From Paraflavitalea pollutisoli (GTDB taxonomy: Bacteria; Bacteroidota; Bacteroidia; Chitinophagales; Chitinophagaceae), in the NCBI RefSeq assembly GCF_029360705.1, contig NZ_JARKMX010000003.1, positions 62,001-126,000 on the forward strand: a stretch of DNA of 64,000 nt, written 5' to 3'. This document shows positions 35,633 through 57,113 of this stretch, one piece after another. A program made the position numbers and the translations under genes. Each line of letters opens with the position of its first letter. Position 1 is the stretch's first letter. Under the pieces are notes generated by a model that worked only from the letters and a program-made list of their open reading frames with translations, did no database searches and had not been told where the DNA came from.

Positions 35633-35663
35633 TTTGTTTCTCCCCGTATTTTCCCTAACTTTG
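35633..35663 (+). promoter_or_regulatory. Promoter of the rplKAJL operon
   Basis: TTTG (35633-35636), a 19-bp spacer, and TAACTTTG (35656-35663), an exact TAnnTTTG box. The start site would be about 105-110 bp upstream of rplK, leaving a leader that could carry autoregulatory structure. The region 35413-35632 has no gene; it must also hold the divergent promoter of the histone-like gene, which I cannot place. Confidence 0.8.
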
Positions 35664-38122: not shown

Positions 38123-38145
38123 TCAGGTTTCCTGCTAGATAATTA

Positions 38146-38170
38146 CCCCGGTCATCGACCGGGGTTTTTT
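38146..38170 (+). terminator. Intrinsic terminator after rplL
   Basis: CCCCGGTC (38146-38153) pairs perfectly with GACCGGGG (38157-38164), followed by six T. It lies 23 bp after the rplL stop and physically ends the rplKAJL operon, which in most bacteria reads on into rpoB. Confidence 0.93.
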
Positions 38171-38311
38171 GTTTTATACCGCCAGCATCGCAGGCGGCAA
38201 CCTGGGGCAGGTCTCATCGTTATAGTGACCGCTATTTCCTCCCTTTCTCAATAGAATGGGTAACTGCCCCTTTACCTGCCAACCTCAAAATGGAACGGTT
38301 TCGTAAACTTA

Positions 38312-38343
38312 TTTTGCAAAATCGGTTTAGTTGCTTAATATTG
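38312..38343 (+). promoter_or_regulatory. Promoter of susC/susD pair 1 with a LacI operator in the spacer
   Basis: TTTTG (38312-38316), a 19-bp spacer holding CAAAATCGGTTTAG (38317-38330), then TAATATTG (38336-38343). The operator half GGTTTAG and the CG centre match the palindromes at 44575 and 44674. Promoter plus operator is almost identical over 32 bp to the one at 44461. Leader of about 220 nt to the susC ATG. The region 38171-38311 holds no gene. Confidence 0.75.
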
Positions 38344-38569
38344 AAATGCCCTCCCGATCCTCTATGTACGTGCAACATAAAAGACACTTTATCAGTGCCT
38401 TAGCGACTTATTGTGATTCCCCGACTCTAACCAAGTGCAACTATAACAGTACTGGCTAACCCCGGCTATAAAGCTGATGATGAACTACTAACGATTGAGC
38501 AGCATGGCTTTCCCTCGACTGTTGACAGCCTCGTACTGAACAGGCTTGTTCACCAAATTTACACTGCAT

Positions 38570-41500
38570 ATGAAAAAGGTTCATTCCGGCTTCATGCAGG
38601 GAGGGATGATGCTTCTCCTCCTGCTTCTCTCTTCTACCTTCACATTTTCTCAGGTCAAATCGATTTCAGGTAAAGTCACAGACGCAAAAGACAACAGCGC
38701 ACTGCAAGGTGTATCCGTCCAGGCCAAAGGAGGGTCGGCTGTGACCCAAACGGATGGCAACGGGTTATTCCGCCTCGAAGTACCGCAAAGCACCACCGTA
38801 CTTGTTTTCACCTTCGTAGGGTATGATCGGCAGGAAGTGCCGATTGGGGCCTCCAATGTAGTCAACGCCTCCTTATCTGCCACCAACCAGGCAATGCAGG
38901 ATGTGGTAGTGATCGGTTACGGTACGCAACGGAAAACGGATCTTACGGGCGCCGTCGGTTCCGTTAAGGCATCCCAATTGGCCGAGCGGCCTGCTGTATC
39001 GCTCAACCAGGCGCTGGCCGGTAGGATACCCGGGGTGCAGGTCAATACCAACTCGGGACGGCCCGGTGGGCAAAGCAACGTACGTATTCGTGGCTTCAGT
39101 TCGATCAACACGTCCAACAACCCGCTGTATGTAATCGATGGGGTGATCATTCCCGTAGGAACACAAACGCAGAACAGTAGCGCGATCGACTACATCAATC
39201 CCAATGATGTGGCGTCTGTGGAAGTACTGAAAGACGCATCCGCCACAGCCATCTATGGAGCTCGTGGTGCCAATGGCGTCATCCTGGTCAGTACCAAACG
39301 GGGTAGCACGTCAGGAGGCAGAATTACTTACGACATGGAGTTGAGCGTTCCCACCATAGGGCCACATAGGGTGGAAATGCTGGATGCCAAAGAGTACGTA
39401 GCCGTAGAAGATTTGGCGTACGATAATATTAAGGTATACGATCCCCAAGGTTGGGCAGCGGGCAACTACGCTTCCACACAAGATCCACGTGTGAAACGCA
39501 AGAACATACCTTCTTTATTTGATGCCAACGGCAATCCCTTGTACAACACGGATTGGCTGAAGGAGTCTACCCAGAACAAGCTTTCACAAAATCACCAGGT
39601 ATCGTTTTCCAATGGTAATAGCGATAACAACTATGGCGTATTTCTCGGATACCGTGATGACAATGGACTGTTGTTGAACTCTTACCTCAAGCGTTATTCG
39701 GGCAGGTTTGTATTCGATAGTAAGATCAAAAGCTGGCTTAAGGTAGGCGGAACACTCAGCTACAATAACCAGAAGGAAAATATCGTAGACCAGGGAACGG
39801 GTGGCTTGAACTCCGTTCGGATGATCACCGAGTCATTCCCTTTCCTGCCTGTTAAATATCCTAATGGTAAATGGGCTGATAATGCAGACTATCCGGATGC
39901 GGAAGGAGGATCCAATCCGGTACACATCATGAACGAGCGAAAATTCAATATGGTGACCCAAACAACGTTGGGTAATGTATACGCCAATCTTTACCTGGCA
40001 AAAGGACTGGAGTTGAAGACCGTGCTGGGTGCCTATGTGGGAACCAGAAATATAACTGAATACAACGGACGAACCTTGTCCAACATCTCCCTCGATCAAC
40101 GGGGAACTGCCAACGTTTCCAATGGCCGTGAATCGTATTGGTCATCGGAAACCTACCTTACTTACAATAAAAAGGTGCGGCAGAATGATGAGTTTACCGG
40201 CCTGTTGGGTATAGGCTGGCAGGAGACGAATATCTATAACTTCGGGGTAGGAGCGGAGAACTTTTCAACCGACTACTTCGAAACCAATTTTCTGGGTGCA
40301 GCCAGCAAACCGTTGCCCGGAAGTTCTGGCAGATCGAGGTTTGCTTTCAACTCCTATTTCGGGCGGTTTAACTACGTGATGAACGACAAATATCTCTTTA
40401 CGGTAACAGGTCGTATCGATGGCTCATCGAAATTCGGCGACAACCATAAATATGCCTTCTTTCCCTCTGCAGCCGTTGCCTGGAGAGCTTCTTCGGAAGA
40501 ATTCCTGCGCAATAGCAATGTAGTATCCAACCTGAAGTTTAGGGCAAGTATAGGAGCTACCGGCAACTCGGAGGTTCCATCCTATTCTTCATTGCCCTTG
40601 CTGGCTTCGGATTATGCAGCCATCATCAACAATACCCGGACGGCTGGTGTTGGGCTTGGCCGTTTGGGCAACCCCGACCTGAAATGGGAGAAAACGGCGC
40701 AATATGATTTCGGTGCTGAATTGGGTTTGTGGGGCAACCGGGTTATGATCGAAGCAGATATCTACTACCGCAAAACAACAGATATGTTGTTGAATGCGCC
40801 CGTACCACGTACCACCGGATATCCTTCCATCTACCGGAATATTGGCAGTATGGAAAACAAGGGACTCGAATTGTCATTGGGAACAGTCAATATCAGCAAT
40901 GCCAACTTCAGCTGGACCAGCGCTCTCAACTGGTCAATGAACAAAAACAAGGTACTTGCGCTGGCAACGCCTGCTGACATCTTTGGCGTCGGTAATCCCA
41001 ACTTCACCAACCAGACGGGCATCATCAGGGTAGGGGAGCCAGTAGGTTCTTTCTGGGGTCTTACCCGGTTGGGTACCTGGGCGACCAAAGACGCCGGCGA
41101 AGCAGCCAAGTTCAACAGCTATCGGGGCGGCAAGCCCATCTTGCCAGGAGATATCAGGTACCTCGATGTCAACGGCGACTACGCGATCAATGATGCAGAC
41201 AGAAGTATTATAGGAAATGGCAATCCGGATGGGTGGGGTAGTTTCTTCAATACATTCAAATACAAGAACCTTGAATTGACAGTGGAGCTGCAGTATGTGT
41301 ACGGGAACGATGTATTGAATATGACGAAGCACTCAGGGGAGGACCGTCAGGCCCTGGCCAATAGTTTCAGGTCGGTATTGAATGCCTGGACACCAACCAA
41401 CGAAAGCACCGATATCGCAGCCATCAGGAATAGCAAGGCTGGTTACGTGACCAATGTTGATACACACTGGATGGAAGACGGATCTTTTTTACGGGGCAGG

Positions 41501-41722
41501 AACTTGTTGCTAGCCTATACATTTGACCAGTCATTGCTCAAAAGGTGGTACCTCAACAAATTGAGGGTCTACGCTTCCGTCCAGAACTTCTTCCTGGCGA
41601 CCAAGTTCAGCGGCAATGATCCGGAAGTAACCACGTATGGGCAACCATTTGCGCAGGGACAAACGTTCTTCGATTATCCTAAGCCAACCACTTATACAGT
41701 GGGCATCAATGTTGGCCTGTAA
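38570..41722 (+). CDS. SusC-like TonB-dependent outer-membrane transporter (pair 1)
   Basis: This 1050-residue protein starts at ATG 38570 with a signal peptide (MKKVHSGFMQGGMMLLLLLL). A carboxypeptidase-regulatory-like domain follows (about 30-110: SISGKVTDAKDNSALQGVSV), then the TonB box/plug region (VVIGYGTQRKTDLTGAVGS; NVRIRGFSS; PLYVIDGVI) and a 22-strand barrel ending in YTVGINVGL. SusC proteins import oligosaccharides bound by their SusD partner. susD follows after 26 bp. Substrate class is suggested by the GH92 enzymes in the same locus. Confidence 0.95.
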   Translation: MKKVHSGFMQGGMMLLLLLLSSTFTFSQVKSISGKVTDAKDNSALQGVSVQAKGGSAVTQTDGNGLFRLEVPQSTTVLVFTFVGYDRQEVPIGASNVVNASLSATNQAMQDVVVIGYGTQRKTDLTGAVGSVKASQLAERPAVSLNQALAGRIPGVQVNTNSGRPGGQSNVRIRGFSSINTSNNPLYVIDGVIIPVGTQTQNSSAIDYINPNDVASVEVLKDASATAIYGARGANGVILVSTKRGSTSGGRITYDMELSVPTIGPHRVEMLDAKEYVAVEDLAYDNIKVYDPQGWAAGNYASTQDPRVKRKNIPSLFDANGNPLYNTDWLKESTQNKLSQNHQVSFSNGNSDNNYGVFLGYRDDNGLLLNSYLKRYSGRFVFDSKIKSWLKVGGTLSYNNQKENIVDQGTGGLNSVRMITESFPFLPVKYPNGKWADNADYPDAEGGSNPVHIMNERKFNMVTQTTLGNVYANLYLAKGLELKTVLGAYVGTRNITEYNGRTLSNISLDQRGTANVSNGRESYWSSETYLTYNKKVRQNDEFTGLLGIGWQETNIYNFGVGAENFSTDYFETNFLGAASKPLPGSSGRSRFAFNSYFGRFNYVMNDKYLFTVTGRIDGSSKFGDNHKYAFFPSAAVAWRASSEEFLRNSNVVSNLKFRASIGATGNSEVPSYSSLPLLASDYAAIINNTRTAGVGLGRLGNPDLKWEKTAQYDFGAELGLWGNRVMIEADIYYRKTTDMLLNAPVPRTTGYPSIYRNIGSMENKGLELSLGTVNISNANFSWTSALNWSMNKNKVLALATPADIFGVGNPNFTNQTGIIRVGEPVGSFWGLTRLGTWATKDAGEAAKFNSYRGGKPILPGDIRYLDVNGDYAINDADRSIIGNGNPDGWGSFFNTFKYKNLELTVELQYVYGNDVLNMTKHSGEDRQALANSFRSVLNAWTPTNESTDIAAIRNSKAGYVTNVDTHWMEDGSFLRGRNLLLAYTFDQSLLKRWYLNKLRVYASVQNFFLATKFSGNDPEVTTYGQPFAQGQTFFDYPKPTTYTVGINVGL

Positions 41723-41748
41723 TATTCCTCATCCAAAAGATTGTCAAT

Positions 41749-43299
41749 ATGAAATACTCAATAAAGCAATACGGTTTTATATTATTCATGGCACTGCTGA
41801 TGCTTGCGGGGCAGTCCTGCAACAAATTCCTGGAAGAAAGCAATGACCCTTCCAATCTGAGTCCCGATAACTATTACACCTTACCGGAGCATGCAGATGC
41901 GGCGGTAGCTGCTGCCTATGCCCGGACACGATTTATCGGTGAGGGTGCAGGCATTTTCGTGCAGAATTTTTCTATGCTGGAAGTAGTGACAGGCACGTCT
42001 AGGACGGAAACGGCGCAGAACTCGGATCTGAATAACCTGGTTGGCATGGTTTACAATGGTGACAACCTGCTGATCAGTAACTGGTGGAATGGGCTGTACA
42101 ATGTGATCGCACAAACGAATCTGGTTCTTGAAAAAGTGCCTCCGATCGATATGGAGGAAGCCAGAAAGAAAAAAGTATTGGGCGAGGCACGTTTTCTGCG
42201 GGCCTGGGCTTATTTCTATGTGGTACGGCTATGGGGCGATGTGCCATTGTTGGTGAAACCCATCTACAGCTCGGCCGACAGCAGTTTTTCTCCCAAGCGA
42301 ACCAGCATACAGGCAGTATACGACCTGATTGTAGCTGACCTCATCAGTGCCGAAGGTGCAGGACTGCCCTGGACCGATGCCAGCGGAAAGGCTTCACTGG
42401 GAGCAGTTAAAGCACTATTGGCTGAGGTATACCTGAATATGGCGGGGCAGCCATTGAATAAGGGCGCTGCTTACTATACACTGGCAGCCAATAAGGCCAA
42501 AGAGGTGATCACCAACGGCTCGTTTAGTCTGTTTGCCAGTTATGCCGACCTGCACTCGTTGGCGCAGGAAAACAAAGGTGAACATATGTTTCAGATCCAG
42601 TACCTGGCATCGGTTGCCGGAAACCCGATGCAGGCGGTGTTGCTTCCCAATTTCAAGGGCATTTCAGCCTATGGTACCGAAGTTGGCAGCACAGTACCCA
42701 CTCCCGCCTTTTATGCTTCTTATGAAGCCGGAGATGCACGTACGGTGGACAGGCAGGGGATGTATTACACCTCCTATTACACGGAAGGCAACGGTGTGTT
42801 GAAGAACCTTGGAGCGCCGTATATCTTCAAGCACTTCGATGTGGTGGCCAATGGAACCTTTGGCGTGGCCGGCACTACGCAAAGTGATCTGAACTGGCCG
42901 CAGATCCGCTATGCTCAGGTTTTACTGACCTATGCCGAGGCGCAGAATGAATCGGCCGCTGCCCCCAATACAGATGCCTGGAATGCATTGAAGGCGATCC
43001 GCGACAGGGCTAAATTAGTAACGCCTGCCTTGGGGACTTTTAACACGGCTAGTTTTCGCCAGGCCGTTTGGAGAGAGCGCTGGCATGAACTCTGTTATGA
43101 GGGCATTACCTGGTTCGATATGGTTCGTTTGCGGAAAGCCTATAAGGAAAGCACGAATTCGTTTGAAGATTTCACAGGTCACGTGTTTGCTGACAACAAT
43201 GCCAAACTGCAGGATAAGCATTTATTATTTCCTATTCCGACGGCTGAGATCAGAAATAATCCCAATCTTCGGCCGCAAAATCCAGGCTATCCAGAATAA
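41749..43299 (+). CDS. SusD-like glycan-binding lipoprotein (pair 1)
   Basis: This 516-residue protein has a signal peptide with a lipobox cysteine near residue 24 (AGQSCNKFLEE), so it is a surface lipoprotein. SusD/RagB features include LISNWWNGLYNVIAQTNLVLE, the TPR-like LGEARFLRAWAYFYVVRLWGDVPLL, and the C-terminal block WRERWHELCYEGITWFDMVRLRK with FPIPTAEIRNNPNLRPQNPGY. It forms the lid of the SusC transporter. A strong terminator follows, so this pair is a separate transcription unit. Confidence 0.95.
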   Translation: MKYSIKQYGFILFMALLMLAGQSCNKFLEESNDPSNLSPDNYYTLPEHADAAVAAAYARTRFIGEGAGIFVQNFSMLEVVTGTSRTETAQNSDLNNLVGMVYNGDNLLISNWWNGLYNVIAQTNLVLEKVPPIDMEEARKKKVLGEARFLRAWAYFYVVRLWGDVPLLVKPIYSSADSSFSPKRTSIQAVYDLIVADLISAEGAGLPWTDASGKASLGAVKALLAEVYLNMAGQPLNKGAAYYTLAANKAKEVITNGSFSLFASYADLHSLAQENKGEHMFQIQYLASVAGNPMQAVLLPNFKGISAYGTEVGSTVPTPAFYASYEAGDARTVDRQGMYYTSYYTEGNGVLKNLGAPYIFKHFDVVANGTFGVAGTTQSDLNWPQIRYAQVLLTYAEAQNESAAAPNTDAWNALKAIRDRAKLVTPALGTFNTASFRQAVWRERWHELCYEGITWFDMVRLRKAYKESTNSFEDFTGHVFADNNAKLQDKHLLFPIPTAEIRNNPNLRPQNPGYPE

Positions 43300-43332
43300 C
43301 GTGTCATAAATACATAAATGAAATTATTAGGG

Positions 43333-43366
43333 CCGGCCAGAAATCCCAGGATTTCTGGCCGGTTTT
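43333..43366 (+). terminator. Intrinsic terminator after susD 1
   Basis: CCGGCCAGAAATCC (43333-43346) pairs perfectly with GGATTTCTGGCCGG (43349-43362) around a 2-base loop, followed by TTTT. It isolates the first susCD pair from the lacI-type gene. Confidence 0.9.
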
Positions 43367-43417
43367 AAATTGGTTGGAAAGGACTAGATTAGCAGTTTAT
43401 AACCATCGCTGACTTTT

Positions 43418-44428
43418 ATGAAAAGAGTTTCACTGAAAGATATTGCCAAAATGGTCGGGGCCTCGCCATCGACGGTATCGTTTATCCTGAATGGGAAGGC
43501 CAGTCAGATGCGGATCAGCGATGAGTTGAAGAATAAAGTGTTGGCAACCGCCAAGAAAATGGGATATCAGCCCAATCAGGTGGCGGTCAGTTTGCGTACT
43601 GGTCAGACAAAGATCCTTGGTTTGCTGGTGGAAGATATTTCTAATAGTTTTTTTGCCTCACTGGCCAAGACGATAGAGCTTGAGGCGGAGGAGTTTGGTT
43701 ATAAGGTGGTTTACTCCAGTACAGAGAACAATAGTAAGCGGGGAGTGGAGTTATTGCGCATGCTTACCCAGCGGCAGGTAGATGGATACCTGATTACGCC
43801 AACGGTCGGGATGGAGGAGGATATTGAAATGATCGTTCGACATAAAAAGCCGCTGGTATTGATGGACCGTTATTTTCCGGGCATCGATACAGCTTTTGTG
43901 CAGGTGGATAACGCGGGCGCTGTTAAGAAGGGAATGGAACACCTGGTCAACAAAGGGTATAAAAAGATAGCCTTCATAACGATCGATTCCGGTATGATCC
44001 AGATGAAGCAACGGGAGGAGGCGTACACAGAAGCAATCAGCCGTAGCGCGGAGCAAAAGAAAAAACTGGTCCTGAAGGTAAATTTTGCCGGGGGCCGGGA
44101 ATTGGCGATTGATCAGATTACGGAATTTTTGAAGAAGAATAATCCAGATGCGGTATTCTTTGCGACCAACTACCTTGGCATTTTGGGGTTGGAAAGTATT
44201 CGGGCTATTGGCCTGTCGATACCCACTGATCTGGCAGTGGTTTGTTTTGATGACAATGATATTTTTCGATTACATCTTCCGGGCATAACTGTACTACAGC
44301 AGCCGGTGGAGGCGATAGCCCGCACCGCTATTCATATCTTGATGCAGCAACTTGGTAACAATAAGATAGCTCTCAAAAAAAATCAGGTACAGCTTGCAGC
44401 GAACTTTATCTCCAGGGAGTCTACGTAA
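43418..44428 (+). CDS. LacI-family transcriptional regulator (copy 1)
   Basis: This 336-residue protein has an N-terminal LacI helix-turn-helix (residues 1-25: VSLKDIAKMVGASPSTVSFILNG, recognition helix SPSTVSFILNG), a hinge helix (PNQVAVSLRTG, about 52-62) and a periplasmic-binding-like effector domain (KILGLLVEDISNSFFASLAKTIE, VDGYLITP, PLVLMDRYFPG, VVCFDDNDIFRLHLPGITVLQQP). It lies between the two susCD pairs and is well placed to bind the palindromes at 38317, 44466, 44575, 44674 and 49644. The effector is probably a mannose-related sugar (inference). A paralogue lies at 55757. Confidence 0.93.
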   Translation: MKRVSLKDIAKMVGASPSTVSFILNGKASQMRISDELKNKVLATAKKMGYQPNQVAVSLRTGQTKILGLLVEDISNSFFASLAKTIELEAEEFGYKVVYSSTENNSKRGVELLRMLTQRQVDGYLITPTVGMEEDIEMIVRHKKPLVLMDRYFPGIDTAFVQVDNAGAVKKGMEHLVNKGYKKIAFITIDSGMIQMKQREEAYTEAISRSAEQKKKLVLKVNFAGGRELAIDQITEFLKKNNPDAVFFATNYLGILGLESIRAIGLSIPTDLAVVCFDDNDIFRLHLPGITVLQQPVEAIARTAIHILMQQLGNNKIALKKNQVQLAANFISREST

Positions 44429-44460
44429 AAGCTGGTTTTGTTAACAATCTGTTTTATTTC

Positions 44461-44492
44461 TTTTGCAAAATCGGTTTAGTTGCGTAATATTG
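44461..44492 (+). promoter_or_regulatory. Promoter of susC/susD pair 2 with a LacI operator in the spacer
   Basis: TTTTG (44461-44465), a 19-bp spacer holding CAAAATCGGTTTAG (44466-44479), then TAATATTG (44485-44492). It is almost identical to the promoter at 38312. The leader to the susC ATG is about 310 nt and contains two further operators. Confidence 0.75.
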
Positions 44493-44574
44493 GCCCGTAT
44501 TTTTACGTTTTCGAATCCTTATCCGCTCCGTTACTCAGAAAGAGACCTTAGTTCTATTTTTTTTTACTGTATAG

Positions 44575-44588
44575 CTAAAACGTTTTAG
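44575..44588. promoter_or_regulatory. Perfect LacI-type palindromic operator
   Basis: CTAAAACGTTTTAG is a perfect 14-bp palindrome with the central CG typical of LacI/CcpA-like operators. It lies inside the susC 2 leader, about 90 bp downstream of the promoter. Confidence 0.75.
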
Positions 44589-44673
44589 GATAGTTAGTTA
44601 TGATAAATCTTTTTCATTCGCTTCCACGTATTTAATGAAGAAGATCTGTCGGCGATTTGTTTTGATGCAATCG

Positions 44674-44687
44674 CTAAAACGGTTTAG
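44674..44687. promoter_or_regulatory. Second LacI-type operator in the susC 2 leader
   Basis: CTAAAACGGTTTAG differs at one position from the perfect palindrome at 44575. Centre-to-centre distance to that site is 99 bp, so looping or a roadblock to elongation is possible (inference). Confidence 0.7.
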
Positions 44688-44807
44688 TGAATCGATTGAT
44701 GACCATTTTCCTGTCGGCTATCGGGTTTATTTAGTCGGGAGGTATTGAAAATAATTCGTAAGAATAACTTTTTAATTAAACAATAAACCCACACAAAACA
44801 CTTGCGT

Positions 44808-47800
44808 ATGGAAAAGCGACGTTCCAACCTCGTGGGGAGGGGCATGCTTTGTCTACTGACACTGCTATGCCTGTCCTTCACAGCCTTCTCTCAAACGAGA
44901 ACTGTTACTGGTAGAGTAACCGGTTCGACTGACAATCTCCCACTTCCCGGAGTTACCATTACGGTAAAAGGGACCTCGGTTTCTAAACAATCAGCTGATG
45001 ATGGTACCTTCTCCATCGATGTTCCTGCGAATGCAACTGCTCTGACCTTTTCTGCAGTGGGTTATGAGTCGCAGGATGTAGTTCTCGGTTCAAGCACGAC
45101 TATTAACATTGATCTCGCAGTTTCCAACAAATCGCTGGAAAGTGTAGTAGTGGTAGGTTATGGAACCTTGAAGAGAAAAGAAATCACTTCAGCCGTAGCT
45201 TCTGTTCGCCCAGATGATTTTCGTCAAAGTGGCGCTCGTAACGCGCTGGACGTTGCTCAAGGTAAGGTAGCAGGTCTGCAAATTACAAGAACCGGTGGTA
45301 CCAATCCCAACTCTGGTGTAAACATCCAGATCAGGGGTATCAACTCTTTGTCTGCTGGTACTTCCCCACTGATCGTTATTGACGGTATTCCCGGTGGTAA
45401 CCTGGATCTGTTGCAACAAGATGATATCGAATCGATCGATGTGTTGAAGGATGGTTCTGCAGCCGCTATTTACGGTACCCGCGGTAATGGTGGTGTAATT
45501 CTGATCAATACTAAAAAAGGTAAAGCTGGTGTTACCCGCTATGATTACAATGGCTATGCCCGTAAAGAGTTTGTAGCCAGAAAGCCAGAATTCTATTCGG
45601 CGGCGGAGCTTCGTGAGCTGATTGCATCCGGTAAACTTGCCGCTGCCCGCGATAATCCAGCCTGGGGAGGTGTAACCACCAATATGTTCGATGAGGTGTT
45701 GAATGATAATAATATCACACAATATCATAACCTCGCCATCTCAGGTGGAACACGTAATTCAAGCTACCGCGCCAGCATGTTCTACCAGGACTTGCAGGGT
45801 ATTGCGCTGGAAAATGGTCGTAAGAACTATGGTGGCCGTTTGAATATCAATCACAGAGGTTTTAACGATAAGTTGACCACTATGATCAACGTAGCTACTA
45901 ACTTCAATAAAGCAAATTTATTGGGTGGTGGTAACTGGGAAACTATCCTGACAAGGCTCCCAACGCAACCGATCTATAATCCTGATGGGACCTTTTACGA
46001 GGATCCTGCAACAACTTCTTCCGCTAACCAGGTTAGTATCCTTAACCAGGAGATGTCTAAGAGGGATCAGCAAACCAGCTCATTGGACGTGAAGTTTACC
46101 TTGGACCTATTCAAGGGCTTTAAGGCTTCCATGTTCGGTGCACTGCAAAGAGATATGTATGTTGACAATGCCTATAAAGACATTGCCTCCAGAAGCTCTC
46201 AGGTTGGAAATACCAATGGTGTACAGCCCAACGGAACAGGCTATGCCTATAAGGGATCGGTCAATAACAATAACTATGCTTTCGAGCCTACTATTGAGTA
46301 TTCAACCGTAATCAAGGATAATCACAGCATCAATGCAATAGCTGGTTATAGCTACCGCTATGAAGTAAATGAAAGTTCTGGGTTTGCTAACTCGGGTTAT
46401 GTAAACGACCTCTATGAGAACAACAACATGGGTGCTGGTGTATATCAGCTTGCTCAACGTTCTTATATGGCTAGCAACAAAAACGATAACACCCTGATCG
46501 CATTCTTTGGAAGGGTTAACTACTCTTTCAACGATAAGTATTATGCTCAGGCAATCTTCAGACGTGAAGGTTCTTCTCGCTTTGGTACCAACAACAAGTG
46601 GGCAAACTTCCCGGCTCTCTCTGCGGGCTGGAATCTCTCCAAGGAAAACTTCATGGAGTCTGTTTCGTTTGTCGACAACCTGAAACTCAGAGTTGGTTAT
46701 GGCGCAACCGGAAATACCGGCTTTAGCAACTATGCTTCTCTGGTAACGCTGAGTGGCGGTGGTTTCTACCTGTACCCAGATGGCGTATGGAGACAAACTT
46801 ATGGCCCAAGCAGAAACCCCAATCCGAACTTACGTTGGGAGAAGAAAAAAGAGATAAATATCGGTCTTGACTTCGGTTTGTTCAAGAACAGACTGACAGG
46901 TTCTATCGAAGTTTATCAACGTAGAACCGAGGACCTCCTCGAAACGTACGACAGCCAGCTCCCCGCCTTCATCACAACTAGTGTTTACGCAAACGTAGGT
47001 ACTATTGAGAATAAAGGTATCGAGCTTACATTGAGCGGTGATGTTGTTCGTTCCAAGAATTTCACCTGGTCTATGGACATTGCTGCCAGCACACAGCGCA
47101 ATAGAATGGTTAGCTTCTCGAACGACATCTACAAAGGAAACTTCAAAGAGTATGGTGGCATCGGTGGTTATGGAGCCCTGGGTAATGCTATACGGACTGT
47201 AGAAGGAGGCCCTCTGGGTTCTTTCTATGGAAAACGTTTTGCAGGATTCGATGCTACCGGTCAATGGTTGTTCTACAAGAGAGACGGTAAAACTACTGTG
47301 ACTTTTGATAAGATCAATACTTCCAACGATCCCAATACTACAGATTTGGCAGTACTTGGAAACGGTATCCCCAAATTCTATACTTCCTGGACTAACCAAT
47401 TGCGCTACAAAGGTTTTGACCTGCGTTTGTTCTTTAGAGGTAAATTCGATTACCAGATCCTGAACCTGATGGATATGGCTTATGCTAATCGTACTACCCC
47501 TACAAACTTGCTGAAGAACACTTTTGGCAAACATGCTCAATTAAACAACGCCACTGGTAACGTAACTTATCAGTACTCTGATTATTACCTGGAGAATGGT
47601 AGCTACCTGAAGCTCGATGAAGTAACTATTGCTTACAACTTCAAGCTGAAGACAAGTTACGTTAAGAACCTGCGTGTTTATTTCTCGGGATCCAACATCG
47701 CTACTATCACCAGCTACACTGGTAACGATCCCGATTTCGTAAATGATACCGGTTTAGGTGCTGGTCTCGATGGCCGCGGTCCTTATCCGAGCACAAGATC

Positions 47801-47831
47801 ATTCCTTGTTGGTGTTAACCTCGGATTCTAA
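44808..47831 (+). CDS. SusC-like TonB-dependent outer-membrane transporter (pair 2)
   Basis: This 1007-residue protein starts at ATG 44808; a TTG two codons earlier is less likely. It has a signal peptide (MLCLLTLLCLSFTAFSQ), a carboxypeptidase-regulatory-like domain (VTGRVTGSTDNLPLPGVTITVKG), a plug (VVVVGYGTLKRKEITSAVAS; NIQIRGINSL; PLIVIDGIPGG) and a barrel ending in FLVGVNLGF. It imports oligosaccharides together with the next gene. It differs clearly in sequence from pair 1, so it may take a different cleavage product. Codon use looks more like highly expressed genes than pair 1. Confidence 0.95.
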   Translation: MEKRRSNLVGRGMLCLLTLLCLSFTAFSQTRTVTGRVTGSTDNLPLPGVTITVKGTSVSKQSADDGTFSIDVPANATALTFSAVGYESQDVVLGSSTTINIDLAVSNKSLESVVVVGYGTLKRKEITSAVASVRPDDFRQSGARNALDVAQGKVAGLQITRTGGTNPNSGVNIQIRGINSLSAGTSPLIVIDGIPGGNLDLLQQDDIESIDVLKDGSAAAIYGTRGNGGVILINTKKGKAGVTRYDYNGYARKEFVARKPEFYSAAELRELIASGKLAAARDNPAWGGVTTNMFDEVLNDNNITQYHNLAISGGTRNSSYRASMFYQDLQGIALENGRKNYGGRLNINHRGFNDKLTTMINVATNFNKANLLGGGNWETILTRLPTQPIYNPDGTFYEDPATTSSANQVSILNQEMSKRDQQTSSLDVKFTLDLFKGFKASMFGALQRDMYVDNAYKDIASRSSQVGNTNGVQPNGTGYAYKGSVNNNNYAFEPTIEYSTVIKDNHSINAIAGYSYRYEVNESSGFANSGYVNDLYENNNMGAGVYQLAQRSYMASNKNDNTLIAFFGRVNYSFNDKYYAQAIFRREGSSRFGTNNKWANFPALSAGWNLSKENFMESVSFVDNLKLRVGYGATGNTGFSNYASLVTLSGGGFYLYPDGVWRQTYGPSRNPNPNLRWEKKKEINIGLDFGLFKNRLTGSIEVYQRRTEDLLETYDSQLPAFITTSVYANVGTIENKGIELTLSGDVVRSKNFTWSMDIAASTQRNRMVSFSNDIYKGNFKEYGGIGGYGALGNAIRTVEGGPLGSFYGKRFAGFDATGQWLFYKRDGKTTVTFDKINTSNDPNTTDLAVLGNGIPKFYTSWTNQLRYKGFDLRLFFRGKFDYQILNLMDMAYANRTTPTNLLKNTFGKHAQLNNATGNVTYQYSDYYLENGSYLKLDEVTIAYNFKLKTSYVKNLRVYFSGSNIATITSYTGNDPDFVNDTGLGAGLDGRGPYPSTRSFLVGVNLGF

Positions 47832-47905
47832 CAGAGACGAATTAATGAGTATATCAGCCATCCGAGAAGTGTCTCAATGAGTGATATCAAAAAAAAACAA
47901 TTAGA

Positions 47906-49525
47906 ATGAAACAGGTAAAAAGTATAATAAAATTCTCCTTACTGGCATTGCCGCTGGTAGGTCTTAATTCTTGTACCAAGCTCGATGAGAATGTGTACAG
48001 TGAATATATCACCGATAACTACTATAACAATAAGAATGAGGTTCTCTCAGCCGTTTTGAGGCCATACACACACGCCAATGCCTGGATAACTCCTGGTCAA
48101 AATGGCTGGTGGCGTTTGAGTGAGCTTTCTGCTGATCAACTGGCCTGGCCCGTAAAGGGAAGGCACGGCCAGGATGGTGGTCAGTGGATTCGCGATCACT
48201 ACCATACCTGGACAAATGACGGCGAAGAGATTTGGGGACCCTGGCGTTTGATGTGGTGGGGACTTGGACTTTGTTCCGATCCTATCGATAACCTCGAAAA
48301 GCGTTCTATAGAGAGCATGAAGATCACGCAAGTTGAGAAGGATGCGTACATAGGTGAGTTGAAGCTGCTGCGTGCATTTCATTACATGCGTTTGATGGAT
48401 CTTTATGGTAACATTCCCATTGTGAAGCAGGTGGGTGAAAATAGCCCTGCGACACAAAAGCGTGCTGATGTATTTGCTTTCGTCGAAAAGGAGATCAAGG
48501 ATAACATCAATAACGTACCTAACCTTTCCACTACCATGCTCGGTCGTGCTTCTAAAGCTGCGGGTTATGGAATGTTGGTAGAGCTCTACCTCAATGCTGA
48601 AAAGTGGTCTGGAACTGCCCGTTGGGATGATTGCATCGCAGCTTGCGACGCTTTGATCAACAATACAGCTGGTGGTCAAAATGGTGCTATGGCACTGGAT
48701 CCGAATATCACTGATACGTACAAACCAACCAATAATCTGTCAAAGGAGTTTATCTTCTCCATTGCCTATGATTTCGTAAATGGTAATGGTTGGAAGCCAC
48801 AATGGACGAGTGATTTTTATCACTTTAACCAACGCTTCATCTATGATGGCACGCATAATGGAAACGATGGTGTTGTAATGATCCCAGGTGTTTATACCAA
48901 ATTCAAGGACAATGACCTGCGCAAGAAGGAATGGATACTGGCCGGCCCTCAATGGTACCTGACCGATCCTACTAAACCAGTGTTGGGTTCTGAAGAATAT
49001 GCCAACAAGCAACTCACTTTTGTGGATAGCATTCAGCGTGTTAGCGAAAACAAGACGCAATCTGACATGACACAAGGTGAAGAAAACAGCGGTCTTCGCT
49101 TTAACAAATACAAACCTGGCCGTCAAGCTGATGCTACTTACATGAGCACAGATTGGGCTATTTACAGGCTCACCTGGGTTTATTTTGCCAAAGCAGAAGC
49201 GTTGATGCGGAAGAATGGGGGAAATGCTACGCAAGCGGCCGTTGATCTGATCAACGAATGTAAAAAGCGTGCTTTCTCAACCGCAGACTGGGCGACTGAA
49301 GCGTATACGCCTTCTACTTTGACCTTGGATGAACTGCTGGCTGAAAGAGGCAGAGAGTTTATTTTCGAAGGGTTCCGTCGGCAGGATCTGATCCGTTTCG
49401 GTAAATTTACTTCGGCTTCCTGGTGGGATCATACCCCAACCAACGACAAGAACAAAGAGCTGTTCCCCATTCCCAACAGACAACGGGTGCTAAACCCGAA
49501 CCTCGGGCAAAATGATGGATACTAA
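47906..49525 (+). CDS. SusD-like glycan-binding lipoprotein (pair 2)
   Basis: This 539-residue protein has a lipobox cysteine near residue 23 (VGLNSCTKLDE). SusD features: LWGPWRLMWWGLGLCSDPIDNLEK, GELKLLRAFHYMRLMDLYGNIPIV, and the C-terminal ERGREFIFEGFRRQDLIRFGKF with LFPIPNRQRVLNPNLGQNDGY. It is unusually rich in Trp near the N-terminal half, which suits an aromatic sugar-binding platform (inference). A strong terminator follows at 49581. Confidence 0.94.
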   Translation: MKQVKSIIKFSLLALPLVGLNSCTKLDENVYSEYITDNYYNNKNEVLSAVLRPYTHANAWITPGQNGWWRLSELSADQLAWPVKGRHGQDGGQWIRDHYHTWTNDGEEIWGPWRLMWWGLGLCSDPIDNLEKRSIESMKITQVEKDAYIGELKLLRAFHYMRLMDLYGNIPIVKQVGENSPATQKRADVFAFVEKEIKDNINNVPNLSTTMLGRASKAAGYGMLVELYLNAEKWSGTARWDDCIAACDALINNTAGGQNGAMALDPNITDTYKPTNNLSKEFIFSIAYDFVNGNGWKPQWTSDFYHFNQRFIYDGTHNGNDGVVMIPGVYTKFKDNDLRKKEWILAGPQWYLTDPTKPVLGSEEYANKQLTFVDSIQRVSENKTQSDMTQGEENSGLRFNKYKPGRQADATYMSTDWAIYRLTWVYFAKAEALMRKNGGNATQAAVDLINECKKRAFSTADWATEAYTPSTLTLDELLAERGREFIFEGFRRQDLIRFGKFTSASWWDHTPTNDKNKELFPIPNRQRVLNPNLGQNDGY

Positions 49526-49580
49526 AAGCTTACTACGAGCCTGATCCGTACCTGTGGTTAAGGTTCCGTACCGGTTTTTG

Positions 49581-49616
49581 ATACCCGGGCCCTAAAAAGG
49601 CCCGGGTATTCTTTTT
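49581..49616 (+). terminator. Intrinsic terminator after susD 2
   Basis: ATACCCGGGCC (49581-49591) pairs perfectly with GGCCCGGGTAT (49599-49609), followed by TCTTTTT. Confidence 0.92.
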
Positions 49617-49638
49617 AACAGGCCGCCTGTATAATATA

Positions 49639-49670
49639 TTTTGCAAAAACGGTTTAGCTGGTTAATTTCG
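49639..49670 (+). promoter_or_regulatory. Promoter of the first GH92 gene with a LacI operator in the spacer
   Basis: TTTTG (49639-49643), a 19-bp spacer holding CAAAAACGGTTTAG (49644-49657), then TAATTTCG (49663-49670). Same arrangement as at 38312 and 44461. Leader of about 47 nt. Confidence 0.73.
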
Positions 49671-49723: not shown

Positions 49724-52018
49724 ATGAAAAAGATAATTCAACTGGTCGTTGCCCTTGCCTGTCTAAACACCCTGCAGGCGCAGATTGTAACGCAAGTATC
49801 TGATCCTGTAGAATGGATTAACCCGCTGATGGGAACCGATTCGAAAGGAAGCTTATCCAATGGTAATACCTATCCTGCTATCGCTGTACCCTGGGGAATG
49901 AACTTCTGGATGCCCCAAACCGGTAATATGGGTAATGGATGGGCTTATACCTATAGCTCTGACAAGATCCGTGGCTTCAAACAAACGCACCAACCGTCTC
50001 CCTGGATGAACGATTATGGTCAATTTGCCATCATGCCGGTAACCGGCGGTGTTAAATTCAAACAGGATGACCGCGCCAGTTGGTTCTCGCACAAAGCCGA
50101 AGTGGCCAAGCCATATTACTATAGCGTTTATCTCGCGGATTGGGACGTAACTACCGAGATTGCTCCCACTGAAAGAGCTGCTCAATTCCGCTTTACCTTC
50201 CCCCAAAACGATAGCTCCTTTATTGCTATCGATGCACTTGACAGAGGATCTTATGTAAAAGTGATCCCTGCCGAAAAGAAGATCATCGGTTATACTACCC
50301 GTAACAGTGGTGGTGTACCTGCTAATTTTAAGAACTACTTTGTTATCTATGTTGATAAACCATTCACTGTTACTTACGCCTGGAAAGATAGTGTACTGGT
50401 AGCAGGGGCTACCGAGTCTGAAGCAAAGCATGCAGGTGCTGTGATCGGCTTTAAGACCAGCCGTGGTGAAAAAGTAAACCTGCGCGTTGCTTCTTCTTTC
50501 ATCAGCTACGAGCAAGCCGATATCTCCCTGAAACGTGAGATTGGCAGCGATGCATTCGATGTTACGAAGAACAAGGCCAAGAACGAGTGGAACAAGCAAT
50601 TGAATCGTATCCTTGTTGAAGGTGGTAGCATCGATCAAACAAGAACTTTCTACTCCTGCTTATACAGGATGCTTCAGTTCCCACAAAAGCATTACGAATT
50701 GGACGCCGCGGGTAAGATCGTTCACTATAGCCCCTACAACGGACAGGTATTACCCGGTTACATGTTTGCCGGTACTGGCTTCTGGGACACTTTCCGTGCT
50801 TTGTATCCTTTCCTGAACTTTATGTTACCCTCGATCAATAAGGAAATGCAGGAAGGGTTGATCAACGACTTTAAAGAAGGTGGCTTCCTACCCGAGTGGA
50901 GCAGCCCCGGCTTTAGAAGCGTCATGGTTGGTAACAACTCTGCTTCTGTAGTGGCGGATGCTTATATCAAGGGCTTACGTGGTTATGATATCAACAAACT
51001 GTATGAAGCTTTGCTGCATGGTGCCAACAACGAAGGCCCCATGACTGCTGTAGGTCGTGCAGGTGTAAAATACTATAATGAACTGGGCTATGTTCCTTAC
51101 GATGTAAAGATCAATGAGAATGCGGCCAGAACACTGGAGTATGCCTATGACGACTTTACCATTTACCAACTTGGTAAAGCACTGGGCCGTCCGAAAGAAG
51201 AAACTGACCTGTATGCCAAACGCAGCCAGAATTTCCGGAACCTCTTCGATCCTGAAACCAAGCTGATGCGTGGTAAAAATCAGGACGGTAAATTCCAGTC
51301 TCCATTTAATCCTTTCAAATGGGGTGATGCTTTTACTGAAGGCAATAGCTGGCATTATAGCTGGAGCGTATTTCAGGATATTGAAGGGCTGAAGAACCTG
51401 ATGGGCGGTAATAAAATGTTTGTTGCTATGCTTGATTCCGTTTTCTCCATGCCACCAGTATTTGATGAAAGCTATTATCGTGGCGTAATCCACGAGATCC
51501 GTGAAATGCAGATCATGAACATGGGGCAGTATGCTCATGGCAATCAGCCTATCCAGCACATGATCTACCTGTACAACTATGCCGGTGAGCCCTGGAAGAC
51601 ACAGTATTGGATTCGCCGCGTGATGGATCAGTTGTACAAAGCAACTCCCGATGGTTACTGCGGTGATGAAGACAATGGTCAGACTTCTGCCTGGTATGTT
51701 TTCTCTGCGATGGGCTTCTATCCTGTTACGCCTGGCACCACTCAGTATGTATTGGGTACCCCACTGTTTAAGAAGATGACCCTGACGCTGGACAATGGTA
51801 AAAAGCTGGTGATCAACGCACCTGCCAACAGCGACAACAATAAATACGTACAGCAGGTTAAGCGTAATGGTGTTGTGTACAGTAAGAACTGGGTAGACCA
51901 TTTCGATCTGTTCAAAGGTGGTACCCTCGACTTCAATATGGGTAGCACACCTAATAAATCACGCGGAACTTCTGCTGATGCATTTCCTTACTCGTATTCT
52001 ACCGACCCTAAAAAATAA
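49724..52018 (+). CDS. GH92 family enzyme with Gln at the catalytic-acid position
   Basis: This 764-residue secreted protein (signal MKKIIQLVVALACLNTLQAQ) has the GH92 layout: an N-terminal beta-sandwich (about 25-260: INPLMGTDSKGSLSNGNTYPAIAVPWGM) and a C-terminal alpha/alpha barrel. GH92 enzymes are Ca-dependent inverting alpha-mannosidases. The acidic site Asp648-Glu649-Asp650 in CGDEDNGQTSAWY is intact, but the segment that holds the catalytic acid reads HGNQP with Gln608, where the neighbouring GH92 has HGNEP with Glu627. A Gln at this site is known from a GH92 that cleaves mannose-1-phospho-6-mannose diesters, so that activity is plausible here. Confidence 0.93.
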   Translation: MKKIIQLVVALACLNTLQAQIVTQVSDPVEWINPLMGTDSKGSLSNGNTYPAIAVPWGMNFWMPQTGNMGNGWAYTYSSDKIRGFKQTHQPSPWMNDYGQFAIMPVTGGVKFKQDDRASWFSHKAEVAKPYYYSVYLADWDVTTEIAPTERAAQFRFTFPQNDSSFIAIDALDRGSYVKVIPAEKKIIGYTTRNSGGVPANFKNYFVIYVDKPFTVTYAWKDSVLVAGATESEAKHAGAVIGFKTSRGEKVNLRVASSFISYEQADISLKREIGSDAFDVTKNKAKNEWNKQLNRILVEGGSIDQTRTFYSCLYRMLQFPQKHYELDAAGKIVHYSPYNGQVLPGYMFAGTGFWDTFRALYPFLNFMLPSINKEMQEGLINDFKEGGFLPEWSSPGFRSVMVGNNSASVVADAYIKGLRGYDINKLYEALLHGANNEGPMTAVGRAGVKYYNELGYVPYDVKINENAARTLEYAYDDFTIYQLGKALGRPKEETDLYAKRSQNFRNLFDPETKLMRGKNQDGKFQSPFNPFKWGDAFTEGNSWHYSWSVFQDIEGLKNLMGGNKMFVAMLDSVFSMPPVFDESYYRGVIHEIREMQIMNMGQYAHGNQPIQHMIYLYNYAGEPWKTQYWIRRVMDQLYKATPDGYCGDEDNGQTSAWYVFSAMGFYPVTPGTTQYVLGTPLFKKMTLTLDNGKKLVINAPANSDNNKYVQQVKRNGVVYSKNWVDHFDLFKGGTLDFNMGSTPNKSRGTSADAFPYSYSTDPKK

Positions 52019-55191: not shown

Positions 55192-55330
55192 GCTTTTCAT
55201 ATATGATTCCACTAAATAAGGTGGATCCGGTTTTCAATTGGGTGCAGGGGGGGGTGTTGTGCAGGGGCGGTTATGGTTCAGGCATAGGTCAGATAGCCGG
55301 GGGACAGGGGGCCGCTTACTGTCCAGGTCT

Positions 55331-55382
55331 CTATAAGGTCCCCATAAGGTCTCTATAAGGTCTGTATAAGGTCTCGATAAGG
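55331..55382. repeat. 11-bp tandem repeats (TATAAGG-type)
   Basis: TATAAGGTC or CATAAGGTC recurs four times with a period of exactly 11 bases (starts at 55332, 55343, 55354, 55365) and a fifth unit GATAAGG starts at 55376. The period matches the arrays at 30698 and 30864. The rest of 55192-55756 holds no gene I can support; it has a G-rich stretch near 55243 and must hold the promoter of the next lacI-type gene. Confidence 0.85.
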
Positions 55383-55756
55383 GTAATCTATAGAAGGCGG
55401 GAATTTTGTCTTTGCCTATAACGGTGGGGGTAGCCATTTCGGCAATAATTGGTCCGAAATGGCATCCGTTACAGGACATTTCCGGCTACATTTTGTTTAA
55501 AACTGAATTTAATCAATTGGGGTGATGGCGGCAATCGGCAGTCGTGGTGCAAGGGTGTGTATAATTGCCAACCAATGCTTTTATGTCTTGAATTTACGGT
55601 GATTATGCGCGTTTTCCTAAAAATATTCCCCCTGTTGAAGTGGAAACCTTAAATTTGAAAGGCTACGGATTCTTGCCAGCTTCTTTGAACCCAATTGCTA
55701 AAGGGGGGGTGCACCAGCACCTACAGGCATGTGCCCCAAAAACTACTGCGAACATT

Positions 55757-56770
55757 ATGAAACGAGTTTCTTTGAAAGACATCGCCAGGATGACGGGGGC
55801 TTCTCCCTCCACCGTTTCCTTTGTCCTGAATGGCAAGGCCCGGGAAATGCGTATCAGCGATGATCTGGCCAAGAAAATTACTACCATCGCCAAGCGTGAA
55901 GGTTATCATCCCAATCAGGTGGCGGTGCGTTTACGCACTGGCAAGTCGCAAATGCTGGGGCTGGTGGTGGAAAGCATTTCCGGCAATTTCTTTGCTGCAC
56001 TGGCCAAGGTGATCGAGGAAGCTGCCGACCAATATGGCTACAAAGTGGTGTACTGTGCTACGGAAAACGACGGTAAAAAAGGGCAGGAACTCATCAAAAT
56101 GCTATCGCAGCAACAGGTTGATGGCTATATCATTACGCCAGCAGTGGGCATGGAGCAGGATGTGGAAGAGCTCGTAGATCATAAAAAGCCGGTGGTATTG
56201 CTGGACAGTTACTTTCCCAATATGGATGTACCGTATGTATTGGTGGATAACTATGGCGGTGTTATTAAAGGGATGAAGCACCTCATTGGCAGGGGGTATA
56301 AAAAAGTAGGATTTATCACGGTAGATCTTCAGTTAGTTCAGATTAAAGACCGGTTACAAGCCTATACTGATAGCCTCAAAGCGGCTGGTATTCCAGTAAA
56401 CCGCAAGCTTATTTTGTCGTTGGGGTATAAGATCAGCCGAGCAGAAGCAATACAGCAGATTTCGGATTTTATTACCAGTCACCCACAGATTGAAGCCCTC
56501 TTTTTTGCCACCAATTACCTGGGATTGCTGGGTATCGAAAGCCTGCAATTATTGGGCAAAACAACGCCGGGCGATGTGGCGATGCTGAGCTTCGATGACC
56601 ACGACGTGTTCCGGTTGTTTCCACCGGGAATCACCATTATCGAACAACCCGTTGAGGAAATTGCCAAAACTGCCATCAATTTACTGATGTCGCAGTTGGG
56701 AAAAAATAAGCCTACCAAAAAGAATAAGGTGCAATTGCCAGCCAAGTTGGTGGTGCGTGGTACTACTTAA
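55757..56770 (+). CDS. LacI-family transcriptional regulator (copy 2)
   Basis: This 337-residue protein starts at ATG 55757 (MKRVSLKDIARMTGASPSTVSF); an earlier in-frame start adds 39 unrelated residues. It is a close paralogue of the regulator at 43418. The helix-turn-helix recognition segment SPSTVSF(V/I)LNGKA differs by one conservative change, so both probably bind the same operators. The effector domain (MLGLVVESISGNFFAALAKVIE, VDGYIITP, PVVLLDSYFPN, VAMLSFDDHDVFRLFPPGITIIEQP) has diverged more. It is the last gene before rpoB; no terminator is obvious behind it. Confidence 0.93.
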   Translation: MKRVSLKDIARMTGASPSTVSFVLNGKAREMRISDDLAKKITTIAKREGYHPNQVAVRLRTGKSQMLGLVVESISGNFFAALAKVIEEAADQYGYKVVYCATENDGKKGQELIKMLSQQQVDGYIITPAVGMEQDVEELVDHKKPVVLLDSYFPNMDVPYVLVDNYGGVIKGMKHLIGRGYKKVGFITVDLQLVQIKDRLQAYTDSLKAAGIPVNRKLILSLGYKISRAEAIQQISDFITSHPQIEALFFATNYLGLLGIESLQLLGKTTPGDVAMLSFDDHDVFRLFPPGITIIEQPVEEIAKTAINLLMSQLGKNKPTKKNKVQLPAKLVVRGTT

Positions 56771-57080: not shown

Positions 57081-57113
57081 TTTTGTGAAATGTTGGGTTT
57101 TTTGTTACCTTTG
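57081..57113 (+). promoter_or_regulatory. Promoter of rpoBC
   Basis: TTTTG (57081-57085), a 20-bp spacer, then TACCTTTG (57106-57113), an exact TAnnTTTG box. It would give a leader of about 175 nt before rpoB. It shows rpoBC is transcribed independently of rplJL here. Confidence 0.8.

Follow-up and report, generated by a model that had tools for sequence, protein, structure and literature searches.

Putative LacI operators in the spacers of three σA-type promoters at a GH92 gene cluster of Paraflavitalea pollutisoli

Can a LacI-type repressor close several units of a glycan utilization cluster by binding between the two boxes of their promoters? This question is raised by a stretch of 64,000 nucleotides (nt) from Paraflavitalea pollutisoli (Bacteroidota; Chitinophagaceae), namely, positions 62,001 to 126,000 of contig NZ_JARKMX010000003.1 (RefSeq assembly GCF_029360705.1). 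In this stretch, referred to here as the window, three promoters of nearly the same sequence precede the units susCD1, susCD2, and GH92-BSP, the last consisting of genes for a GH92 glycosidase and a BSP-type peptidase. An earlier note, made from the letters of this DNA, had described the common layout of these promoters and proposed that a LacI protein bound to an operator in the spacer would block RNA polymerase directly, giving one switch for three units. As judged from sequence comparison, the best explanation, and one that we consider quite probable, is that LacI operators occupy the spacers of σA promoters at this GH92 cluster, where LacI dimers would occlude RNA polymerase.

Layout of the three promoters and the proteins expected to bind them

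At 38312, 44461, and 49639 on the + strand, exactly 19 nt separate TTTTG from a second box, which reads TAATATTG, TAATATTG, and TAATTTCG, respectively; the layout given in the earlier note proved exact to the base. All three spacers share the opening that it had reported, CAAAA(T/A)CGGTTTAG, which reads CAAAATCGGTTTAG at promoters 1 and 2 and CAAAAACGGTTTAG at promoter 3, and its estimate of about one differing base in 32 between the first two copies agrees with our count of 1/32. At promoter 1, the −33 box TTTTG (38312..38316, invariant in all five genomes compared from the genus) adjoins the putative LacI-type operator CAAAATCGGTTTAG (38317..38330), and the −7 box TAATATTG occupies 38336..38343. 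The corresponding elements lie at 44461..44465, 44466..44479 (putative operator CAAAATCGGTTTAG), and 44485..44492 (TAATATTG) for promoter 2 and at 49639..49643, 49644..49657 (putative operator CAAAAACGGTTTAG), and 49663..49670 (TAATTTCG) for promoter 3, all on the + strand. The −7 box of promoter 3 is a variant of the window strain, the other three genomes that have this promoter carrying TAATTTAG.

All three promoters fit the Bacteroidota σA consensus of a −7 box TAnnTTTG with TTTG near −33 (PMC7366714, PMC9723704), each −7 box being one substitution away from TAnnTTTG. Given that the −7 box spans −12 to −5 (PMC9723704), the spacer operator is centered at about −24.5, and transcription is predicted to start at about 38348, 44497, and 49675. 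As expected of a LacI operator, it overlaps the promoter, lying between the −33 and −7 boxes in 14/14 copies from the genus. A 19-nt spacer is also found in the operator-free promoter that precedes the gene for ribosomal protein L11 (35633). Terminator-like stems lie upstream of promoter 1 (38145-38165) and promoter 3 (49580-49610), a weak signal given 20 such matches overall versus 17.9 in shuffled sequences.

At three or fewer mismatches, TTTTGCAAAAWCGGTTTAG matches the window four times, whereas 100 shuffled versions gave 0.07 matches on average. Three of the four are exact, and the fourth is a three-mismatch match on the opposite strand that overlaps the first. In the 8.76-Mb genome, the only exact copies of the 19-mer are those at the three promoters of this cluster. 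When the genome was scanned for either of two forms of the operator, with one mismatch allowed, no convincing distant target emerged: cluster sites included, there were 12 matches versus 15 in the reversed control and 8 versus 10.

The cluster encodes two LacI regulators, LacI1 and LacI2, both with PF00356 and PF13377. Among proteins of solved structure, those closest to LacI1 include CcpA, the repressor of a ribose operon, and PurR. E. coli LacI carries a tetramer tail; given that LacI1 (336 residues) aligns over 4-335 with CcpA (332 residues), it should be without one. The genome holds 18 LacI-like matches at an E value of ≤1e-15, of which 15 have readable recognition helices, while two gave none and one returned its neighbor. 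Among the 15, the triple Pro-Ser-Phe at the residues that correspond to 17/18/22 of the E. coli protein is confined to LacI1 and LacI2 (for the other proteins, it was mostly read by eye), so that the two are expected to read the same sites. LacI-family sites are, as a rule, even palindromes with a CG at the center (PMC4052901), and two putative operators in the susC2 leader have this form, CTAAAACGTTTTAG being perfect and CTAAAACGGTTTAG having one mismatch. The spacer copies keep the central CG and the right arm, with an imperfect left arm.

Conservation in the genus and operator position in other genera

Exact copies of the 19-mer are present in all five genomes of the genus, 14 in all, versus none in the reversed control at two or fewer mismatches. 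We expressed conservation as the mean pairwise identity within each promoter class, ungapped, so that insertions and deletions lower the values of the flanks. By this measure, TTTTG scored 1.0, the operator 0.95 to 1.0, and the −7 box 0.94 to 1.0. The 5-nt gap before the −7 box scored 0.64, 1.0, and 0.43 at promoters 1, 2, and 3, and its length never varies; TAATATTG is invariant at a fixed distance in 10/10 copies of promoters 1 and 2. Identity falls to between 0.25 and 0.68 in blocks at least 20 nt upstream or at least 8 nt downstream and is 0.91, 0.49, and 0.43 in the 20 nt directly upstream of TTTTG at promoters 1, 2, and 3. Since the identity of the boxes and the operator far exceeds that of most flanks, the comparison indicates that these elements are under constraint, the gap being held in length only in two of the three promoters.

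Promoter 3 was not found in genome G003, whose contig ends ∼300 nt past promoter 2. The sole other match in that genome is TTTAGCAAAAACGGTTAAG (L040, 1409-1519, two mismatches), which lies ∼60 to 90 nt upstream of a divergent GH92 gene elsewhere in the G003 genome, its product being 46% identical to the first GH92 protein of the window. This site is a possible further member of the regulon.

In a related genus, promoter and operator come apart. Two regions of genus g3 (the Pseudobacter group), L101 and L102, which were picked by their LacI1-like protein and not by the promoter pattern, have TTTTG-N19-TAATATTG without a spacer operator; there, the operator, CTAAAACGATTTAG or CTAAATCGATTTAG, begins 10 to 11 nt past the −7 box and is centered at about +13.5. 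Since the promoter form is kept while the operator lies past the −7 box, the sequences indicate that the two are separable. Region L117 of the same genus combines both arrangements: at susC the operator lies in the spacer, and at GH92 it lies 10 to 11 nt past the −7 box. The operator of GH92 promoters is thus located at −24.5 in the window genus versus near +13.5 in g3.

When we searched 394 genomes of the family for the composite TTTGCWAAAWCGNTTTAG-N5-TAATWTTG at three or fewer mismatches, 50 sites were found in 39 genomes, against 8 in the reversed control (a hand count of the table). A gene resembling LacI1 or LacI2, called by tblastn at an E value of ≤1e-10 over more than 400 nt, was present in 17/36 regions around sites outside the genus versus 0/18 control stretches taken 100 kb away on the same contigs (18 existed of the 20 requested). 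Among 118 strand-wise operator contexts, 27 of the 53 −7 matches fall at one offset, a histogram that is biased by the choice of many regions through the composite pattern or the 19-mer and that leaves out L203, which overlaps L112.

A further observation concerns genus g10 (L109, L110), where the operators are of the form GTAAAACG.TTTAC, versus CTAAAACG.TTTAG in L101, L102, and L117. The recognition helix reads SPTTVSF in the LacI protein of g10, SPSTVSF in the window genus, and STSTVSF in g3, a possible change of specificity as far as can be read from these sequences; counter to this, L112 and L113 combine SPTTVSF with CTAAAAC.

Proposed mechanism and its alternatives

The comparative evidence supports the boxes, the operators, the constraint on both, and their association with the LacI genes of the cluster, and with them the coupling of promoter boxes and a LacI-type operator that the earlier note had put forward; from this we infer binding, repression, an inducer, and a role for the leader operators. 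Each site would be an ordinary σA-type promoter (−33 TTTTG, 19-bp spacer, −7 box TAnnWTTG or close to it) with a LacI operator near −24.5. As long as the inducing sugar is absent, LacI1 and/or LacI2 would sit as a dimer on DNA needed by RNA polymerase, keeping susCD1, susCD2, and GH92-BSP off together. A sugar freed from the glycan would then bind the LacI sensor domain, the dimer would leave, and all three units would open. The inducer is probably a mannose-containing sugar, a guess from the GH92 family. In the susC2 leader, the one or two palindromic operators could act as a second lock, via a roadblock or dimer-dimer contact.

TTTTG might instead belong to an operator that is longer than assumed here, or it might terminate a −7 box located 27 bp further upstream, with the promoter lying elsewhere and LacI acting as a roadblock past the start. 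This notion draws on TTTTGCAAAA being a perfect 10-bp palindrome and on the bases before the operator, which fit the −7 consensus in 7/9 regions of genus g72 and in L182 (TAATTTTG, TATTTTTG, TAAATTTG). However, the leader operators lack a TTTTG flank, and in L101 and L102, the spacer of TTTTG-N19-TAATATTG is free of any operator. The fixed distance and invariance of TAATATTG in all ten copies of promoters 1 and 2 also disagree with it, as do the eight letters ending in TTTTG, which fit TAnnTTTG in 0/14 genus copies, and we regard this alternative as improbable. The bases before the operator themselves are TAATTTTG in L187-L191, L193, and L194, except for TATTTTTG in L191, and TAAATTTG in L182; in these eight regions, transcription could thus have an additional start immediately ahead of the operator.

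The regulator in the spacer could also be an activator that realigns an overlong spacer, or a LacI protein acting as an activator. MerR-type promoters indeed carry a palindromic site within a 19-bp spacer, the very arrangement seen here, but 19 bp is a normal spacer in these genomes, being used by the operator-free promoter at 35633 and by L101 and L102. The adjacent and linked regulators, moreover, belong to the LacI family, whose typical central CG is also present in the motif, so that activation from the spacer appears very unlikely to us. We give even less credence to a recent duplication, in which the promoters would be alike through copying of a segment and not through selection on the operator: although the single difference in 32 bases between promoters 1 and 2 is what copying would give, the likeness of the three promoters is confined to about these 32 bases (pooled columns), which hardly differ from species to species, in contrast to the drift of most flanking blocks.

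Several observations weigh against repression from a LacI operator in the spacer. Its palindrome is imperfect in the spacer copies, with the left arm CAAAA (invariant in 14/14) and not CTAAA, an arm that may make the operators of the promoters weaker than those of the leader. At promoter 1, conservation continues past TTTTG into the 20 nt before it. Outside the genus, 19/36 sites have no LacI1-like gene, including the one-mismatch sites in L173 and L176, several of the regions being short contigs, and 9 of the 17 LacI-bearing sites come from one genus (g72) out of seven genera in all. Conversely, L108, L120, L123, L124, and L126 carry a LacI relative, and no site within three mismatches of CTAAAACGTTTTAG with a central CG was found in them. 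In the window, the DNA upstream of the second GH92 gene, LacI1, and LacI2 has no operator at three or fewer mismatches, and the switch therefore does not span the whole cluster.

Leader operators, known systems, and the setting of the cluster

The three units do not appear to be governed identically, given that two further and better palindromes lie in the susC2 leader, both on the + strand: the putative leader operators CTAAAACGTTTTAG (44575..44588, about +79 to +92), a perfect palindrome, and CTAAAACGGTTTAG (44674..44687, about +178 to +191), a near-perfect one. At least one such site is present in all five genomes of the genus (two in three genomes and one in the other two), and no operator was found in the susC1 leader of the window at three or fewer mismatches. 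Of the single switch for three units that the earlier note had proposed, the common spacer operator thus held at all three promoters, but susC2 alone has leader operators and promoter 1 alone has the additional element CGGTTTCGTAAACTTA.

This element (38296..38311, + strand) lies directly upstream of promoter 1 and contains an inverted repeat, GTTT-N3-AAAC, centered at about −45, a place where an activator could bind. It is nearly invariant in 5/5 genomes of the genus, the preceding 20 nt having an identity of 0.29 versus the 0.91 of the 20 nt before TTTTG, and was not seen at promoters 2 and 3. We also searched for a wider role of CGGTTTCGTAAACTTA in 195 genomes of the family at three or fewer mismatches and found no meaning: it is exact in the three genus genomes of this sample, with scattered matches of two to three mismatches elsewhere, and the reversed control is also common. 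Further downstream, the five genomes show strong conservation at the end of the susC1 leader (38543-38572, GGCTTGTTCACCAAATT...ACTGCATATG), and ACAGTACTG, further up in this leader, is nearly as conserved.

A second operator ahead of susC occurs in other genera as well, being found downstream of the core (spacer) operator in two g3 regions, L117 (177 bp apart) and L197 (204 bp). It also occurs in g7 (L177 and L178, 363 and 362 bp apart, with one mismatch in the second site) and in g72 (L105 and L115, 389 bp), where the spacer measures 20 nt and the second site is of poorer quality. Among the 14 regions listed, susC is preceded by just one operator in L182, L183, L202, and L203, and these, together with susC1 of the window, refute a core-plus-leader pair as a universal layout. 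In the five genomes of the genus, the core-to-leader distances are 109/208, 155, 155/264, 153, and 121/220 bp, clustering near multiples of 11. With the period left free, the chance level of this helical phasing is ∼0.09 when each genome contributes one distance and 0.006 when all distinct values are used; in the other genera, 177 and 362/363 bp fit, whereas 204 and 389 bp do not. The phasing is merely suggestive, and we do not claim looping. In the E. coli gal operon, the operators of GalR, whose LacI-family dimers have no tetramer tail, are ∼113 bp apart, and the susC2 arrangement is similar in having LacI-family dimers and two operators about one hundred bp apart. Tentatively, and with more doubt than confidence, we consider a design of two locks, in which the same LacI dimers would close all three core promoters and, at susC2, also the leader, so that GH92-BSP and susCD1 would open first and the second importer last. 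If true, it would be a natural counterpart of an engineered core-plus-proximal switch of Bacteroides.

In that engineered system, the LacI/RbsR-regulated PcfxA promoters (PMC9259675), which come closest in design, one operator occupies the stretch between the −33 and −7 boxes and another is placed close to the start, a tandem layout chosen since more than 80% of transcription factors gave inadequate fold changes with a single operator. The PcfxA system is synthetic and uses engineered E. coli-type proteins, whereas the Paraflavitalea layout is natural and found at three promoters, with the second operator at about +79 and +178 in the susC2 leader instead of near the start; at the GH92 promoters of g3, the proximal operator replaces the core one. 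With LacI/GalR-family systems (PMC4052901), the cluster shares the LacI helix-turn-helix with a periplasmic-binding-protein-like sensor, the even palindrome with a central CG, and a regulator beside sugar genes; in the available part of that survey, the Bacteroides phylum forms one taxonomic group, and no GH92/susCD regulon of Chitinophagaceae is met. For Bacteroidota, the polysaccharide-locus regulators that are stressed are activators (SusR, hybrid two-component systems) and sigma/anti-sigma pairs (PMC3878776). The alpha-mannan loci of B. thetaiotaomicron likewise place susCD and alpha-mannosidase genes under sugar-responsive control, but through the hybrid two-component HTCS_Man and the GntR-type ManR and not through the LacI family, whose members tabulated in the available part of that work serve uronates (KdgR, UxaR, UxmR, UxuR) (PMC3878776). 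No published LacI-controlled susCD/GH92 locus of Chitinophagaceae was evident at the level of titles and beginnings of abstracts, nor in the available part of PMC10766802, which is not proof of absence. The mechanism is thus of a known kind, and the natural example, while not surprising, looks new within the literature searched. Being readable from the sequence, such a repressor switch would allow a regulon to be defined directly in Chitinophagaceae and would offer a natural candidate part for tight Bacteroidota promoters, together with a comparative set in which the operator position differs and the promoter form is kept.

With two susCD pairs, two GH92 genes, a BSP peptidase, and two LacI genes between 38.5 and 56.8 kb according to Pfam, the cluster qualifies as a polysaccharide utilization locus. 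On the + strand, promoter 1 is followed by susC1 (TonB-dependent receptor; 38570..41722, ATG at 38570), susD1 (41749..43299), and LacI1 (43418..44428; 336 amino acids, LacI helix-turn-helix plus Peripla_BP_3). Promoter 2 is followed by susC2 (44808..47831, ATG at 44808) and susD2 (47906..49525), and promoter 3 by the GH92 gene (49724..52018) and the BSP-type peptidase gene (PF04450; 52033..52728), whose position fits a shared unit with GH92. This placement agrees with the units that the earlier note had put behind the promoters. LacI2 (55757..56770, + strand), with the same recognition-helix triple as LacI1, has a listed GTG start at 55640 that is probably too early. SusC1 is 83 to 90% identical between species.

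The GH92 cluster (37043-57293) lies between rplL and rpoB, past the L10 and L7/L12 genes, splitting the usual rplJL-rpoBC neighborhood. Related genera (L094-L102, L105, L108, L115, L117, L121) have a LacI gene or the cluster at the same place; only the rplL side is visible in L117 and L100, and a LacI gene is the sole element recognized between rplL and rpoB in L108 and L121. Short direct repeats resembling CTATAAGGTCT follow one another between the second GH92 gene and LacI2 (∼55328-55384), and rpoB has a promoter-like sequence of its own, TTTG-N20-TACCTTTG, at 57082.

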